Assembly (NCBI GenBank): GCA_016284175.1
Contig: JAEEOJ010000031.1
Coordinates: 17,713-81,712, forward strand
Direction: 5' to 3'
DNA: 64,000 nucleotides
Origin: Lachnospiraceae bacterium
GTDB taxonomy: Bacteria > Bacillota > Clostridia > Lachnospirales > Lachnospiraceae
A program made the position numbers and the translations under genes. How positions within the stretch are numbered: position 1 is the stretch's first letter; each line of letters begins with the position of its first letter. Positions 15,511 through 24,211 of this stretch are shown here, one piece after another. A model generated the notes under the pieces. That model was not told the DNA's origin. It saw only the letters and a list, made by a program, of their open reading frames with translations, and made no database searches.

Positions 15511-15530
15511 CGGAGAGATTGCTCTCTCCG
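15511..15530 (-). terminator. intrinsic terminator downstream of the EAL gene
   Basis: CGGAGAGA-gcaa-TCTCTCCG then CTTTTT on minus strand. Confidence 0.8.
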
Positions 15531-15562: not shown

Positions 15563-18358
15563 TTACATTACATTATCAAGTTCCTTGCAGTATTTAGGAA
15601 TGTAAATGTAAATATTTTCAAACAGTTTGGAGGCAGTTGCCATATACTGGTACGAACCTTCTTCCGTTTCAATCTTCTTGTTATAGAATTCGGTATCTGT
15701 AATAATCTTCTGGAATACAGGAACATCATACTGGTTAACGGGATCGGGCGAGTTGCCTAAATCCGCATAGATATTACCGCCTGTAATCTCAAGTCTGCCC
15801 TTCATACCGCCAAGGCTGACAGGATTTGCTGCAAGTAATACAACCTTATGAACACCGTTCTGGATTCTTGTCATGCCGTAGCCGTGATATGTTCCGATAC
15901 CGCCGACTTCAGAGCCTTCAACATAGATAAATACCTGCTCAGCCGAGCTTCTGATATCCATATCTCCGTCAAGTGAACCGATACCCATACCGCTCATTGA
16001 ATGTACGTTACATGATACAAATCCGGAATTGATGTAAATTCTTCCCTTACCATACTGCAGTACACCGATACCTGTAGCACGGCTTCCGGAAGCTTCAAGT
16101 TCTATATCTGCACTGGTATTGATTTCTACCCTGCCTTCCATGGAACCGATACCGATTGCATCGGCACCCGAGGCTGAAATAGCCACATGGGACTGATTGA
16201 CAATAATCTGTGTATATCCCTGAAGCGAACCTATTCCGACTACTCTTGAACCGTTTACGATGATTTCAACATTACCGGAATCAAGCTTAATCTTGGAATT
16301 TTCATCAGCAAGATAACCGCCGATTGCAAATGCCTGATCAGAGTTGGCTTCAATTCTAAGTGTACCTGTACCTTCGAAACTGATATCTCCGTAAGGTGTC
16401 TTTTCATCAGAACCGGTACCGATACCGATACCGTTGTTGTGATCAACTCTGATGGTAAGATTACCCTTGCCCTGGATGATGAGTCTCGATGTGGAAGGAA
16501 CTTTGATACCTTCATAAGAGAATATGTTGTTACCCTCAAGAGTAAGTGTAACAAATGAATTCTCACCGATTTCAATGGTAGGATTGTTTCTTCCTCGTAT
16601 ATTAACATCCTTAAGATTGATAATGGTTTCTTTATTATCGGGAACCTTAATGGACATGTTAACTTCTTTTTTGCTCTTAAGTCCGACAAGATTAACCGAA
16701 GGCTGTTCGACGATAATCTGTGAATAGAAATCGAGAGCAAGGTTGATAAGAGAAACCGTCTCGAAATTGCCGGGTGTATAGGACTTGTTTTCAAGAGCAA
16801 GCTTGGCGAGTTTAAGGTTGATGGCCATAATCTCGTCTTCTATTTCAGATGAAATCGAATCTGCTATAACGCTGTTGGGACGTCCTGTATAGAAGCCCTG
16901 GATTAAGTGACAGCCAAGTTGGATAACCATCTGAAGTTCATCGGGAGTTTCAACGCCTTCTGCAAGAATCTTCATGCCATGATTGTTGCCGAACGAAATT
17001 GTATTGGAAACAATCTGCTGTTTTCTCGAGTCTGTATCGATACCCATGATGATGGAATGGTCAATCTTGATATAATGCGGCGAGTTATTAAGAAGCGTGG
17101 ATGCATTCGAATAACCTGTACCGTAATCATCAAGTGCAAGTTCACATCCGGACTTCTTCATGTACTTGTGTACCGTCTCGCATGAATCTTCTGACTGCAT
17201 ACCGTTTTCGGTAATCTCTATAACGAGGTTTTTCATAACGTCCTTGTATTGAACATACAAATCGTTAAACTCGTCTTCTTTTATGATAACTGTGGGAATT
17301 GAGTTAATGAAAAGCTTGCGGTTTTCGAAAATCGATGCATTCTCATTCATAATCTTAAGTACGTTAAAGAATGTATAATGCTCCACTTCGTAAAGTCTGT
17401 CGTTTCGCTCAGCCATTTCAAGAACGTCAACAGGCGAGAAACCGATTTCCTTGTTGGTTCTCATAAGTGCTTCATAAGCATAAATCTTACCTGTTTTGGC
17501 AGATACGATAGGCTGGAAATTATACTGAAGTTCATTGCCGTCAAGAATCTTTTTAATCTTGTCGTTTCTTAAGTACTCTGTTTCCTGACGCTTTAAGGCA
17601 TCCTGTGAGAAGTAATGAGGCTCGCTCTTTGAGAACATGGATGCTTCCATTGCAGCGAATCCTGCATATGTTAAAAGATCTTCATAGATTTTACCCTGGC
17701 TGGAAGATGCATAACCACAGTAAACACAGAAGTTTTCGGATGATGGCAAATGAAGAAGAATCGCATTGATCTCATCCATAAGGTTCTTATGGTAAGTCTG
17801 GATATCTTTTAACTCGACTTCATTGGTCATAACCAGAAATTCATGTCCGGATTTACAGCCTAAAGTTACGAATCTTTCGCCCATTCGTTTCTGATACATC
17901 TTAAATACTTCGCCGATTTCCGCTTTAATATCAGCCGCTTTCTGTGAACCCACGAAATGACGGAGATGTTCAAGACCTTCTATTTCAAAAATTGCCAGAT
18001 AAACATCGGACATTGAAATAGCAAGCTGCTGTATGGCCTTATCCGAAAACGTATCAAGATAAAGCAGACCCGTCTCGGGATCTACATCAGCAGAATCTGT
18101 GATATTTAAGAAAATGGGTAAATCTTCTCTCTGAAAGGCCTTTACCATTTTAAACGCAATGAAAAGACCGACAATAAAGAATGCTGCTCCCAGTATGAAA
18201 TATGCGAGTGCAAACCAGGTAAGTCTGAAGAATGCATAAATATAATATGCGCCTACTGCAAATAAAAGAAAGGCAAGCACTATAAAAATATTCTCGATAA
18301 TGAGAAAATATCGTATTTTTTTATATCCGCTGACCTTCTTGTCCTGTTCTAAATCCAT
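15563..18358 (-). CDS. membrane-anchored degenerate GGDEF + EAL protein with C-terminal predicted beta-helix repeat domain
   Basis: two N-terminal TM segments; SGHEF in the GGDEF position; YEALMR, EITE, DDYGTGYS, AEGVET, QGFYTGRP EAL motifs; C-terminal recurring (G)IG(S/T) repeats. Confidence 0.9.
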   Translation of the reverse strand: MDLEQDKKVSGYKKIRYFLIIENIFIVLAFLLFAVGAYYIYAFFRLTWFALAYFILGAAFFIVGLFIAFKMVKAFQREDLPIFLNITDSADVDPETGLLYLDTFSDKAIQQLAISMSDVYLAIFEIEGLEHLRHFVGSQKAADIKAEIGEVFKMYQKRMGERFVTLGCKSGHEFLVMTNEVELKDIQTYHKNLMDEINAILLHLPSSENFCVYCGYASSSQGKIYEDLLTYAGFAAMEASMFSKSEPHYFSQDALKRQETEYLRNDKIKKILDGNELQYNFQPIVSAKTGKIYAYEALMRTNKEIGFSPVDVLEMAERNDRLYEVEHYTFFNVLKIMNENASIFENRKLFINSIPTVIIKEDEFNDLYVQYKDVMKNLVIEITENGMQSEDSCETVHKYMKKSGCELALDDYGTGYSNASTLLNNSPHYIKIDHSIIMGIDTDSRKQQIVSNTISFGNNHGMKILAEGVETPDELQMVIQLGCHLIQGFYTGRPNSVIADSISSEIEDEIMAINLKLAKLALENKSYTPGNFETVSLINLALDFYSQIIVEQPSVNLVGLKSKKEVNMSIKVPDNKETIINLKDVNIRGRNNPTIEIGENSFVTLTLEGNNIFSYEGIKVPSTSRLIIQGKGNLTIRVDHNNGIGIGTGSDEKTPYGDISFEGTGTLRIEANSDQAFAIGGYLADENSKIKLDSGNVEIIVNGSRVVGIGSLQGYTQIIVNQSHVAISASGADAIGIGSMEGRVEINTSADIELEASGSRATGIGVLQYGKGRIYINSGFVSCNVHSMSGMGIGSLDGDMDIRSSAEQVFIYVEGSEVGGIGTYHGYGMTRIQNGVHKVVLLAANPVSLGGMKGRLEITGGNIYADLGNSPDPVNQYDVPVFQKIITDTEFYNKKIETEEGSYQYMATASKLFENIYIYIPKYCKELDNVM

Positions 18359-18418: not shown

Positions 18419-18817
18419 TTAAGTCGAGAAAGCAAGAAGTGCTAATTTATTGAAAACTATTTCTTCGTCAAAATACTTTTCATCGGACGAATGAAGCTCT
18501 AAGTATTCGTCTGCAGTAAGTGTTTTTGATTTGTAAACTTCCTTACCGTTCTTTTCGGAATATACGCCTACTTTGAATTTAAGTTTAAGCTGTTTTACAG
18601 CCTGATAAACAAAATCTTCGCTGTTTATGTTTGCAAGAAGATCGCAGATTTTTGCATTCCTCTGTTCTTCTTCTCCGAAAAACTTGTTAAACACAGCTTT
18701 GACCTTAAAAGGAACATCTTCGAATGCCATCAATTCGGCGACACTCATCTGTGCTCCGACATATATATGAGTCATATCCTGTACGACTGCTTTAAACTCT
18801 CTGTTAATCTGTTCCAT
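18419..18817 (-). CDS. hypothetical protein, 132 aa
   Basis: ORF closely spaced (6 bp) behind the sigma-like gene. Confidence 0.65.
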   Translation of the reverse strand: MEQINREFKAVVQDMTHIYVGAQMSVAELMAFEDVPFKVKAVFNKFFGEEEQRNAKICDLLANINSEDFVYQAVKQLKLKFKVGVYSEKNGKEVYKSKTLTADEYLELHSSDEKYFDEEIVFNKLALLAFST

Positions 18818-18823
18818 ATTTTT

Positions 18824-19561
18824 TTATTTAGGTTCGTCAATAATTTCAATACCGCCGGTAATCTGCAAAACCTCTTTAATAAAGTCTTCTTCAAAATCAC
18901 CGAATTTGCAGAGTTCTTCAATGGTCACGTTTCTCTGAAGAGTTTCGTAAAGCTCTTTAGCCTTTTCCAACACCTCGTTAGCATTTTCGGCCCAGGTATT
19001 TTTCTTTGCGGCCTCATTGTTATCGTCGTATAAAAGCTCTTCCATTGCACTCATTATTCCGTCAGTAATAAAACCGTCGAGTTCCTTTGCGGAGTTTTTT
19101 TTATCAAGCGACTCTAAAATAACGGCCAGCGCAACATTTCCCTCGCCGATTAAATCTTCGATAGGAACGCCCGAGCCTGTGTAAAGCTTAGACATTTCAA
19201 CAATATCGTGAAGATAACTTTCAATTACCTGATCTCTTAAAATACTCTCTCCTTCGGCGAATCTTTTAAGAATGTCATGCTTTTCCTTCTGTGTGTATTT
19301 CTTTACGCCTTCAAGCTCATCAATGTACATCTGAAGGAAATCGACATCTTCCTCGTCTAAGATTTCATCGAAATCAAAGGGTTCGTCGACACCGATTTTT
19401 GCATCATAAAGGAAATTGTATATAAATTGTTTTTTCTCTTCATCCAGATTGATGTCCTTAAAATACGAATCGACATCTTCTTTGCTGACGCAGTTGCCGT
19501 TCTCTCTGCCGTATTTTAAGAGCTTATCCATCTGTGATATAAAAAGTTTTTTCTCGTCCAT
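18824..19561 (-). CDS. sigma-70-like protein lacking promoter-recognition regions
   Basis: sigma 1.1-like N-terminus; DFLQMYIDELEGVKKYTQKEKHDILKRFAEG (region 1.2-like); VIESYLHDIVEMSKLYTGSGVPIEDLIGEGNVALAVILE (2.1-2.2-like); region 3-like LYETLQRNVTIEELCKFGDFEEDFIKEVL; no region 4. Confidence 0.7.
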   Translation of the reverse strand: MDEKKLFISQMDKLLKYGRENGNCVSKEDVDSYFKDINLDEEKKQFIYNFLYDAKIGVDEPFDFDEILDEEDVDFLQMYIDELEGVKKYTQKEKHDILKRFAEGESILRDQVIESYLHDIVEMSKLYTGSGVPIEDLIGEGNVALAVILESLDKKNSAKELDGFITDGIMSAMEELLYDDNNEAAKKNTWAENANEVLEKAKELYETLQRNVTIEELCKFGDFEEDFIKEVLQITGGIEIIDEPK

Positions 19562-19573
19562 TTTTATTACCGG

Positions 19574-20515
19574 TTATTCAATATGTTTGTGTGTAAATAA
19601 ATGCTCGTTGCAGTATTCGTAATTGCCGTTACATTTTGAGCAGTATCTGAATGTAAGTTCAGGATTGGAAACATCTGTCTGTCCGCATATCGCACATTTA
19701 TGTCTTATCTGCGATACGGGTTCTGACACAGCTTTAATCTTCTTTTTGAATTCCTGCTGACGTTTGATTTCCTTAAATCTCTTTTTGCCTTTTCTTAAAA
19801 TCAGATAGAATATCAGGACATTAAGAAGTGATGTACTTACCGCAACAAGTGTTATGATTCCGCTGTTAAATCCGCCCTGAACAAATGCAAGCAGTACGCT
19901 TACACCAAGAACGATTAAGTATATGATTCCGAGCACCTTTACTTTTATCGGAATGATAAAGAAAAGAAGCACTCTCATATTCGGATATGTAATTGCATAA
20001 GCAAGGAATATCGAAAGGTTTAAATAATATGTACCGAAACTGAACGACATGTAATGGAAAAACCATGAGCCGCCAAGCGATGCGGGACACGCTTTTCCAA
20101 GCGCCATTTTATAATAACCTTCCAGGTTTGCAACATAATCGGGCGCTAAAAGTTTAAAATATCCGAAGAGTAAAAATGCACCGACTATTGTAAGGAATAC
20201 ACCCGTGAAAAAGAAAAAGTTAAACGCAAATTTTCCCCATGCAACTTCAAGATTTCTGCCGATTGAATAATAAAAGAATAAGAAAATCAGCACGAAGAAT
20301 ACGTTTGACGCACTGTCGGGTACAAATATCCAGGAAACAAGTCTCCAGACCTGTCCGTGAACTATAGCCTCGGGATTAAGTGTAATAAAGTAAATCCAGT
20401 CGGGTTTTACGAGGTTCATTAAGAATCCGAAGGCATATATAATTACAATTATAAGAGGTAAATTCGGAATCGCATATTTGCCGAATTTTCTCTCCATTTT
20501 GTTAAACCATGTCAT
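19574..20515 (-). CDS. rhomboid-like membrane protein (no GxSG catalytic motif) with C-terminal Cys/His-rich zinc-binding tail
   Basis: HGQVWRLVSWIFVP and YYSIGRNLEVAWGKFAFNFFFFTG rhomboid-like motifs; C-terminal CAICGQ..YCSKCNGNYEYCNEH. Confidence 0.72.
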   Translation of the reverse strand: MTWFNKMERKFGKYAIPNLPLIIVIIYAFGFLMNLVKPDWIYFITLNPEAIVHGQVWRLVSWIFVPDSASNVFFVLIFLFFYYSIGRNLEVAWGKFAFNFFFFTGVFLTIVGAFLLFGYFKLLAPDYVANLEGYYKMALGKACPASLGGSWFFHYMSFSFGTYYLNLSIFLAYAITYPNMRVLLFFIIPIKVKVLGIIYLIVLGVSVLLAFVQGGFNSGIITLVAVSTSLLNVLIFYLILRKGKKRFKEIKRQQEFKKKIKAVSEPVSQIRHKCAICGQTDVSNPELTFRYCSKCNGNYEYCNEHLFTHKHIE

Positions 20516-20532: not shown

Positions 20533-21468
20533 CTATAATGATGCACTGTCAAAACCGATATTCTCCACATCATAGGGAGTAATCTGGTATACATAGTAAT
20601 TAAGCCAGTTGCTGTAAAGATTTATACTGTGACTTCTCCACTGTAAAAGAGGTCTGTTCTTGGGATTGTCGTCAGGATAATAATTGTATGGAATCTTGGG
20701 ATTAAGTCCCTTGCCCATATCTCTTTTATATTCGCTGTCGAGCGTATATCTGTCATACTCGGGATGCCCTGTTACAAACACCTGCTTACCGCCTTCGCTT
20801 ATACAGATAAATACACCTGCCTCGTCGGATTCTGCCAGGATTTTAAGTTTGTCGCAGTTCTCGACATCCTCTTTGCTGACTTCGGTATATCTTGAATGCG
20901 GAGCATAAAACTCATCATCAAAACCTCTTACCAGAGGCTCCTTTCTGTTTTTAACCCTGTGCTTGTAAATACCGGTAATCTTTTCTTTTAATTCTTTCTT
21001 TTTAAGTCCGAAATGATAGTAAAGGCCGGCCTGCGCACCCCAGCAGATATGAAGTGTACTGGTAACATTCTTCTTGGACCATTCAAAAATCTGGCAGAGT
21101 TCTTCCCAGTAATCAACATCTTCGAAAGCGAGCTGCTCAACGGGAGCGCCTGTGATAATTAAACCATCGAATTTCTCGTTCTTTATTTCATCATAAAAGG
21201 TATAAAACTTGTTTAAATGGCTTGCGGATGTATTCTGAGAAATGTGTGATTTTACATTTAAGAAAGTAACATCCACCTGTAAGGGAGTATTGGATAAAAC
21301 TCTTAAGAGCTGAAGTTCTGTCTCTTCTTTTAAAGGCATTACGTTAAGAATCGCAACCTTTAAAGGTCTGATGTCCTGATGCATAGCCCTGGTTTCATCC
21401 ATCACAAATATATTTTCGTTTTCGAGTGTCTCTTTTGCAGGGAGATCACTTTGTGTTCTGATCGGCAT
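20533..21468 (-). CDS. metAA: homoserine O-acyltransferase (probably acetyl-CoA-using)
   Basis: [14 protein letters not shown] active-site Cys, [25 protein letters not shown]. Confidence 0.93.
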
Positions 21469-21478
21469 TTCTGACTCC

Positions 21479-23437
21479 TTAAACAGTTATATTAAACTCG
21501 CTCATAAAATCATCTTCGGAGATAATTCTGATACCGAGTTCTTTTGCTTTTTTATTTTTGCCTGAAGATGAATTAACATCATTGTTAATCAGTGCTTCGG
21601 TCTTGTTCGATACACTGCCCGATACTTTTCCGCCACGGCTTTCAATTATTCCTTTTAAAAGGTCGCGGTTTTCAAAATGATTGAGCGTACCTGTAATGAC
21701 AAATGTTTTGCCTGCGAGGTCTTTCTCGCCTGTGCTTTCAATTTTTTCAAGCTCGACATACTCTAAAATATTGTCGACTTCTTTAATTCTTGCTTCATCA
21801 TGAAAGAAATTGTAAATGCTTGTAGCAATTACTTCTCCGACCTGATCTATAGTTGATAATTCATCCACGGAAGCATTTCTTATTTTATCAAAATCGTAAT
21901 CATAAAACGATGCGATAAGCTTTGCGTTTGCAACACCGACATTTTCGATACCGAGTCCGTATAAAAGTTTCGGTAATGTGGTTTTCTTTGCCTTTTCGCA
22001 GGAAGCAATCATATTTTCGTATGATTTGATTCCGAAGCCTTCCATCGTCACGATATCGTTTTTATATCTCTCAAGTCTGAAGAAATCAGCATACTCCTTT
22101 ATGAAGCCTTTTTCAATAAATTTAACGATTGTTTCTTCGGATACACCGTCAATACTAAGTGCATTTCTTGATGCAAAAAGCGTTAAACTCTTCTCCTGCT
22201 TAACAGGGCATAAAGGATTTCTGCACATCAGTACATCGGTACCGTCTGTTGATTCAACAACAGTTTTACCGCCGCATGAAGGACAGCATTCGGGAAGCAC
22301 AATATTATCGCTCTTTGTAAGGTTTTCGGATATCTGAGGGATAATCATATTGGCTTTATAAACCAGTATTCTGTCACCGATACCGAGTTTAAGCGAACGC
22401 ATGACTGAAATGTTGTGTACACTTGCTCTCGACACATTCGTGCCTTCCAGGTCAACGGTATCAAATATAGCCACGGGATTGATTAAACCGGTTCTCGAAG
22501 GACTCCATTCAATCTCTCTTAATATGGTTTCAGCCTGTTCGTCCTGCCATTTAAAAGCAATAGCATTTCTCGGTGCTTTCGCAGTTGAACCGAGCGATTT
22601 TCCGTAAGCTATATCATCATACATCAAAACAAGACCGTCTGACGGAATGTCGTAAGTCTTTATTTCGTTTGAATACCATTCTATCTTTTCAAGAAGATTG
22701 TCTCTGTCGACCTCTTCTTCATGTACACATTCAAATCCAAGACTCTTTAAAAACTTCATCTGTTCAAGTCTTGAATTGTTGAAATCAACATCTTCCGCTT
22801 CCACAAGATTAAATGCAAAGAAGCATACATTTCTTGATGCTGTTACTTTCGGATCAAGCTGTCTTACCGAACCGGAACATAAGTTTCTCGGGTTCTTGTA
22901 CTGCTCGTCGGGATTTTCGATTTTTTCGTTTATCTTTTTGAAATCAGAATACGAAATTACGGCTTCGCCTCTTAAAACAAGATGGCCTTTATAGGAAATT
23001 CCTACAGGAAGATTCTTAAAACATTTTGCATTCTGAGTGATAACTTCGCCTACTTCACCGTTACCTCTTGTAACTGCATTGGTAAGTTTTCCGTCATCAT
23101 AAGTAAGGACGATTGTAAGACCGTCCAGTTTCCACGAAAGCAGGCCCTTCTTATCCTTAAGCCACTCTCTCAACTCTTCCCTGTCTTTGGTCTTCGAAAG
23201 GGAAAGCATGGGTGAAGGATGCGTAAACTTGGGCAGAAAAGAAACAGGTTCATAGCCAACTTTTCTTGTCGGAGAATCGGATAAAATTATCCCTGTTTCT
23301 TCCTCAAGTTTTACAAGCTCATCATAAAGCGAATCATACTCAAAATTGGAAATGATTTCCTCATCCTTTGCATAATACGCTTCATTTGCCTTTTTTAATA
23401 TTTCACAAAGTTCTTTTATTCTGTCGATTTCGCTCAT
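21479..23437 (-). CDS. ligA: NAD-dependent DNA ligase LigA
   Basis: adenylation motif KLDGLT, Cys4 zinc finger, HhH region, C-terminal BRCT. Confidence 0.95.
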
Positions 23438-24156
23438 ACATTTTCGGGGTTTTTAAAAACCATATCGTAAAGTTTATCCAGCTCTTCGCCTGTTATTTCT
23501 CTGTATTCGTTGGGTTTAAGATCTCCTAAAAGAATATTGCATACTCTGATTCTTTTAAGAGAAACTACGTCTAACCCGCATTCAAAACACATTCGTCTTA
23601 TCTGTCTGTTTAAGCCCTGCGTAAGAGTTATCTTAAAAGTTCTTAAATCCACGGGAACAACCTTGCAGGGTTTGGTTTCAACACCTAAATCAAAAAGGAA
23701 AAGTCCCTTCTCCATTCTCTCAAAGATAATGGGTTCAATGTCTTTATCAACGGTAACTATGTATTCCTTTTCATGGTTATTGGAGCCGCACATCATTACG
23801 TGAATAAGATCACCGTCATTGGTCATTAAAAGAAGTCCTTCGGAATCCTCATCAAGACGTCCTGCATATGTAAGTCTGGTAGGATATTTAAAAGCTTCGG
23901 TAAGAGTTACATTTGCATGAACATCGGCTTCGGTAACAGTTACGCCGACAGGTTTGTAATATGCTACAACCTTCTTTTCTTCAGGCTTAACTGCCTTACC
24001 GTCAAGAGTTACTTCGTCTGCTTCGGTAACCTTGCTTCCAAGTTCGGCTTTCTTACCGTTAATAAGTACTCTGCCGGCTTCAATAAGGCCGTCTGCTTCT
24101 CTTCTTGAGCATATCCCGCAAAGAGCTATGTATTTGTTGATTCTGTATTCGTCCAT
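23434..24156 (-). CDS. RsuA/RluB/RluF-family pseudouridine synthase
   Basis: S4 domain N-terminus; GRLDEDSEGLLLMTNDGDL; LTQGLNRQIRRMCFECG; 4-bp overlap with ligA. Confidence 0.93.
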   Translation of the reverse strand: MDEYRINKYIALCGICSRREADGLIEAGRVLINGKKAELGSKVTEADEVTLDGKAVKPEEKKVVAYYKPVGVTVTEADVHANVTLTEAFKYPTRLTYAGRLDEDSEGLLLMTNDGDLIHVMMCGSNNHEKEYIVTVDKDIEPIIFERMEKGLFLFDLGVETKPCKVVPVDLRTFKITLTQGLNRQIRRMCFECGLDVVSLKRIRVCNILLGDLKPNEYREITGEELDKLYDMVFKNPENV

Positions 24157-24211
24157 AATATTTCGTGAGAAAAAAATAATAGTGCATAATCAATTGATTA
24201 TGCACTTTTTA

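Follow-up and report, generated by a model that had tools for sequence, protein, structure and literature searches.

A conserved sigma-70 paralogue without promoter-recognition regions in Lachnospiraceae

The DNA analysed in this study, referred to as the window, is a stretch of 64,000 nucleotides from a Lachnospiraceae bacterium. Its minus strand carries a run of genes for a pseudouridine synthase, a 652-aa protein which we take to be an NAD-dependent DNA ligase, homoserine O-succinyltransferase, a membrane protein (RHOM), the sigma-like protein under study (SIGL), a small protein (Q132) and an EAL-domain protein, in this order. The features of the run are as follows:

23434-24156, minus strand: pseudouridine synthase, part of the SIGL gene run
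20533-21468, minus strand: homoserine O-succinyltransferase (metA), part of the SIGL gene run
19574-20515, minus strand: RHOM, upstream of SIGL; membrane protein with a C-terminal Cys/His zinc-ribbon-like motif
18824-19561, minus strand: SIGL, a 245-aa sigma-70 paralogue without promoter-recognition regions; ATG start
18419-18817, minus strand: Q132, 132 aa, unnamed family; start 6 nt past the SIGL stop
15563-18358, minus strand: large EAL-domain protein, last gene of the run
15511-15530, minus strand: predicted terminator-like hairpin after the EAL gene (consensus scan)

The gaps amount to 17 nt between metA and RHOM, 12 nt between RHOM and SIGL, 6 nt between SIGL and Q132 and 60 nt between Q132 and the EAL gene. 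The consensus scan placed a second terminator-like hairpin at 24181-24206, so that with the one at 15511-15530 both ends of the run are flanked. Based on the short gaps and the two bracketing hairpins, co-transcription of the run is likely. The EAL-domain protein shows a repeat-like C-terminal half with a weak match to the carbohydrate-binding family Cthe_2159, and its position downstream of Q132 is conserved across the genus. RHOM is a polytopic membrane protein with an invariant C-terminal Cys/His motif and is named by neither Pfam nor NCBIfam. Some of its motifs read as rhomboid-like (WR..W, G..LE..WG); no catalytic GxSG was seen and there was no Pfam rhomboid match.

The protein sequence quoted in the first-pass annotation is the exact product of the minus-strand open reading frame 18824-19561. 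That annotation allowed for the outcome that profile searches would reveal no sigma-70 similarity, and this was not what we found. Residues 70-244 match curated sigma models (TIGR02394 RpoS, E=2e-14; RpoD, E=8e-13), and residues 74-235 match the chain of SigA in PDB entry 7l7b, a C. difficile RNA polymerase (E=7e-13). A profile of 28 relatives matched SigA chains at E=3e-43, and the 60 matches listed for the family profile comprise only sigma-type molecules. An AF2 model (pLDDT 84.6) retrieves sigma chains with a best E of 5e-8 at a modest global fit (whole-chain TM only 0.3-0.36), and displays the 2.3-3.0 segment as a single long helix on the basis of a shallow alignment. SIGL is a member of the sigma-70 superfamily by descent and homologous to primary sigma factors. 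The model, PDB and profile matches bear out the domains originally read from the sequence, namely regions 1.1, 1.2 and 2.1-2.2 and a region 3-like segment:

19376-19561, minus strand: region 1.1-like domain, residues 1-62 (hhalign; PF03979 in relatives)
19238-19342, minus strand: region 1.2, residues 74-108 (SigA chain match, profile alignment)
19124-19237, minus strand: regions 2.1-2.2, residues 109-146; DLIGEGN at 136-142 is the motif for core-RNAP contact
18974-19123, minus strand: degenerate, acidic segment in place of regions 2.3-2.4-3.0, residues 147-196 (residue losses, net charge)
18848-18973, minus strand: region 3.0-3.1-like helices, residues 197-238 (PF04539 match at 192-235)

The N-terminal 62 residues align with SigA N-termini in hhalign at P=98.6% and E=1e-15, compared with 0.1% for two unrelated families used as negative controls, and PF03979 (region 1.1) lies above its cut-off in the relatives L053, L054 and L059. 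SIGL thus possesses an N-terminal domain homologous to region 1.1 of group 1 sigma factors. The Pfam match to region 2 covers model positions 2-46 of 71 and therefore ends before regions 2.3-2.4. PF04539 (region 3) is sub-threshold in the SIGL of the window and over threshold in many relatives, and within the region 3.0-3.1-like helices E482 is kept in 108/108 members. The C-terminus falls where region 3.2 would start, and neither region 3.2 nor region 4 is present. The early stop of the region 2 match and the missing region 4 agree with the earlier statement that 2.3-2.4 is replaced and region 4 absent.

For a residue-level view, 108 members of the family (59 matches from a search of 298 genomes and 49 from a first survey, each checked) were aligned and numbered after E. 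coli sigma-70; the result held at 18 further loci. Individual residues were classed as core or DNA contacts in line with the general understanding of sigma-70. In region 2.2, D403 is kept in 108/108, E407 in 106/108, G408 in 104/108, N409 in 107/108 and L412 in 101/108 members, and further kept residues are L384 (105/108) and Y394 (98/108). Q406 is the exception, being retained in only 39/108. The first-pass annotation had quoted EDLIGEGN as the core-contact motif; this holds as far as the core contacts are concerned, whereas Gly stands here for the usual Gln (Q406 in E. coli), a clade-specific state. Among the promoter residues, W433 is found in 1/108, W434 in 0/108, Q437 in 6/108 and R441 in 2/108 members, and T440 is kept in none, with Glu at this position in 87/108. 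Lost or nearly lost as well are K418 (2/108), T429 (1/108), R448 (4/108), R451 (6/108), P453 (0/108) and H455 (3/108), and N383 is retained in just 10/108. In region 1.2, Y101 is kept in 104/108 members and the equivalent of R103, where SigA has Lys, has turned acidic (Glu or Asp) in 75/108. The segment 414-462 has a median net charge of -6 in SIGL (range -15 to +4) versus +6 in SigA (+4 to +6), and in the window the degenerate segment carries -7 compared to +5 in the SigA of the same genome. A complete N-terminal domain is found in 100/108 members. Beyond E. coli position 507, at most 39 residues follow in 106/108 members, whereas SigA has 105-108; the tails of 66 and 104 aa in the remaining two are either acidic or rich in His and Cys. 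No member has the WW motif, whereas the WW motif and region 4 occur in 24/24 SigA-type proteins retrieved. Matches to PF04545 (region 4) in two relatives were placed on the region-3 helix-turn-helix (L052 219-249, L059 226-265) and were dismissed as cross-matches.

Taken over 108 members, this pattern indicates that SIGL kept core-facing and shed DNA-facing residues. It has the region 2.2 core-contact residues of a functional sigma-70, Q406 excepted, and lacks the 2.3/2.4 residues and region 4. Elongation factors also use the region 2.2 site on beta', which, along with the retained region 2.2 and the lost promoter contacts, would fit a post-initiation or assembly factor. SIGL would then sit on the clamp helices of beta' in core or elongating polymerase with little competition at initiation, and might act in pausing, termination, core storage or assembly. 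However, regions 1.1 and 3.0-3.1 are kept and are not obviously needed by a pure clamp-helix binder, and we consider this explanation, including its candidate roles, unlikely.

Of 298 near-complete genomes of Lachnospiraceae, at least 108 carry SIGL, counted as the listed rows whose match outscores the best ordinary SigA; this corresponds to roughly one in three of the gut and rumen Lachnospiraceae sampled. In the first survey of 99 related genomes it was found in all sampled members of the genus of the window, at 34-99% identity, and in several further genera. Across the class, a search at E<=1e-57, a threshold that very diverged members would escape, covered 289 genomes and revealed no SIGL outside the family. 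Because it is undetected in most genomes of the family, it is not needed for transcription as such. No viral relatives of the SIGL type were found, and a viral origin was rejected since all of 80 viral matches score better as ordinary sigma factors. A link to defence systems was likewise dismissed, the sole PADLOC match being a weak one to the sigma part of MzaA. At one locus (L137, G129:C2), two full-length SigA-type genes lie in tandem (ORFs of 368 and 384 aa), suggesting that primary sigma genes are duplicated in this family.

One might suspect a sigma gene in decay or a misannotated remnant, as half of the sigma functional regions are missing, and the first-pass annotation had considered that orthologues with intact regions 2.4 and 4 might expose a decayed copy. 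Orthologues show the same loss instead. The ORFs are intact in nearly all carriers with the same boundaries, and across at least 108 of the 298 genomes this constancy speaks against a remnant, as does a partner gene, Q132, conserved clade-wide. Six close orthologues give an overall dN/dS of 0.027, with 0.038 for the degenerate segment; a value of about 0.03 implies purifying selection and excludes decay. Conservation, intact ORFs and dN/dS thus leave the remnant explanation with next to no credibility. The proposal that SIGL does not direct initiation gains strong support, as the DNA contacts of 2.3, 2.4 and 3.0 as well as regions 3.2 and 4 are lost in 108 members under purifying selection.

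The residue at position 406 divides the family. In type I (67/108 members) it is Gly; in the other 41/108 (type II), Q406 is kept in 39 and replaced by Ala in 2. RHOM adjoins SIGL in 66/67 Gly members and Q132 lies within the fetched stretch in 63/67, while neither is found beside any of the 41 non-Gly members, and no fixed neighbours of type II were found. In the tree, the SigA sequences form a clade of their own (100/99) and every SIGL lies opposite, a topology in keeping with one origin of SIGL; type I is a single clade (support 100/98) and type II is not a clade. Type I members carry, inside the core interface, Gly instead of Q406 and mostly Glu instead of L402, changes that could weaken RNAP binding. 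Among the later loci, L249 (G306:C80) has a QEGN, type II-like SIGL directly downstream of RHOM without Q132, possibly the ancestral arrangement. Several type II members (L055, L097, L103, L114, L116) bear His/Cys-rich C-terminal tails with, e.g., HHHH or CGCG runs, suggesting metal binding in some of them.

The two neighbours of type I differ in what they tell about function. RHOM occurs in 294/298 Lachnospiraceae genomes whether SIGL is there or not, so its adjacency reflects location and not a functional signal, and RHOM as a functional partner is weakened. Q132 was found in 39/298 genomes, directly beside SIGL by listed coordinates in 36 of the 39; in the remaining loci a shorter SIGL lies between Q132 and RHOM (G270) or contig ends interrupt the cluster (G104, G200). 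Where the assembly allows a check, Q132 was never found away from SIGL, which marks it as a partner gene dedicated to type I SIGL. The AF2 model of Q132 (pLDDT 91) predicts an alpha/beta fold, and the searched domain, profile and structure libraries provided no family name. Weak matches to DUF1659, phrog_622 and a CO-dehydrogenase flavoprotein-like fold (E=0.004) were discarded, as none is consistent across the Q132 family.

A conserved partner gene recalls sigma factors made of two subunits. In SigO-RsoA, sigma functions are spread over polypeptides and a region 2 protein lacks region 4 (PMC8103513), a split-sigma precedent under which SIGL would provide core binding and another protein, such as Q132, DNA recognition. 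SigO and RsoA initiate jointly, however, and their region-4 subunit is a separate gene. All PF04545/PF08281 region 4 domains above cut-off in the genome of the window share an ORF with region 2, and profile searches at family cut-offs, which a more diverged region 4 could escape, found no region-4-only ORF there, so that a split sigma with an orphan region 4 was rejected. In SIGL, moreover, -10 recognition itself is lost with region 2.4 and would also have to come from elsewhere, Q132 is predicted to adopt an alpha/beta fold and gave no helix-turn-helix match, and type II members lack Q132. A two-subunit sigma is therefore very unlikely. The late sigma pair gp55/gp33 of phage T4 offers a further comparison, as gp55 is also a region-2-type protein without region 4. 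It still recognises a -10-like promoter, whereas SIGL is the product of a chromosomal bacterial gene.

The main rival is an anti-anti-sigma decoy, in which SIGL would mimic SigA or another sigma factor and titrate an anti-sigma factor, with no need for RNAP contact; Q132 could be this anti-sigma factor or its switch. PhyR of the alphaproteobacterial general stress response provides the precedent, since its sigma-like domain lacks promoter contacts, does not initiate and acts by mimicry (PMC8103513). In addition, anti-sigma factors target region 2.2 as well (PMC4598750), so its conservation alone does not pin RNAP as the partner, and the dedicated gene Q132 would fit such a scheme. PhyR, however, is ECF-like, has lost its core-RNAP contacts, carries a receiver domain and titrates NepR (PMC8103513), whereas SIGL comes from a primary sigma, keeps the core contacts almost invariantly together with regions 1.1 and 3, and has no receiver or other response-regulator domain in any domain scan. 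Furthermore, Q132 matches no known anti-sigma family or fold, and type II SIGL does without Q132 or any fixed neighbour. Altogether, the decoy is a serious but rather doubtful explanation.

Compared with SigA/RpoD, a group 1 sigma-70, SIGL has homologous regions 1.1, 1.2, 2.1-2.2 and 3.0-3.1 and the core-contact residues, but is devoid of the 2.3-2.4 promoter and melting residues, the 3.2 finger and region 4, and its DNA face is acidic instead of basic. In known sigma factors, the main interface with core is the region 2.2 helix against the beta' coiled-coil, and 2.3-2.4 contacts the -10 element (PMC4598750). The reading we prefer, held at about even confidence, is that SIGL is a dedicated non-initiating sigma mimic at the sigma site of core RNAP, with Q132 as cofactor or antagonist. 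It draws on the selective retention of D403, E407 and N409 with loss of promoter residues, the charge flip of the DNA-facing segment, the retained N-terminal domain, the low dN/dS, the lack of an orphan region 4, the tree with SigA and the Q132 linkage. Judged from sequence, the loss of promoter recognition is well supported, and we infer that SIGL would bind core RNAP in competition with, or in place of, SigA and that Q132 would have a role in regulating it. The first-pass idea that SIGL binds core RNAP or competes with sigma gains indirect support from the near-invariant contacts of region 2.2, a surface that may equally serve an anti-sigma factor.

In this proposed mechanism, SIGL derives from a primary sigma factor, and its conserved region 2.2 helix would probably dock on core RNAP at the beta' clamp helices, while region 1.1 may sit near the DNA channel. 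With 2.3-2.4 acidic and 3.2 and 4 gone, it would be unable to recognise or melt a -10 element or to reach a -35 element. Its presence at the sigma site may reduce or time SigA holoenzyme formation or, alternatively, hold core polymerase in a non-initiating state, and in the clade of the window (type I) Q132 would be the cognate protein modulating it. In a broader and more tentative form, SIGL proteins would be lineage-specific, initiation-incompetent paralogues of primary sigma, a “dummy sigma” that stores or silences core polymerase, with Q132 as regulator in one clade. Such a protein may also fill the DNA path via region 1.1 and the acidic replacement helix and, if true, would be a protein equivalent of 6S RNA built from sigma itself.

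Searches of the open-access literature found no protein with the SIGL layout. We rate its components as known sigma domains and their combination as unmatched in the literature searched; to current family models SIGL is no more than a weak and partial match to sigma. The coupling of polymerase binding with promoter reading is what defines a sigma factor, and SIGL, if the mimic reading is true, would separate the two. This raises the testable question of whether a sigma without its DNA-reading parts can regulate polymerase through site occupancy. It would also warn against tallying SIGL genes as additional sigma factors of Lachnospiraceae. Widespread and under purifying selection in a dominant gut and rumen family, SIGL would, if the reading holds, represent an extra layer of transcription control in these bacteria.
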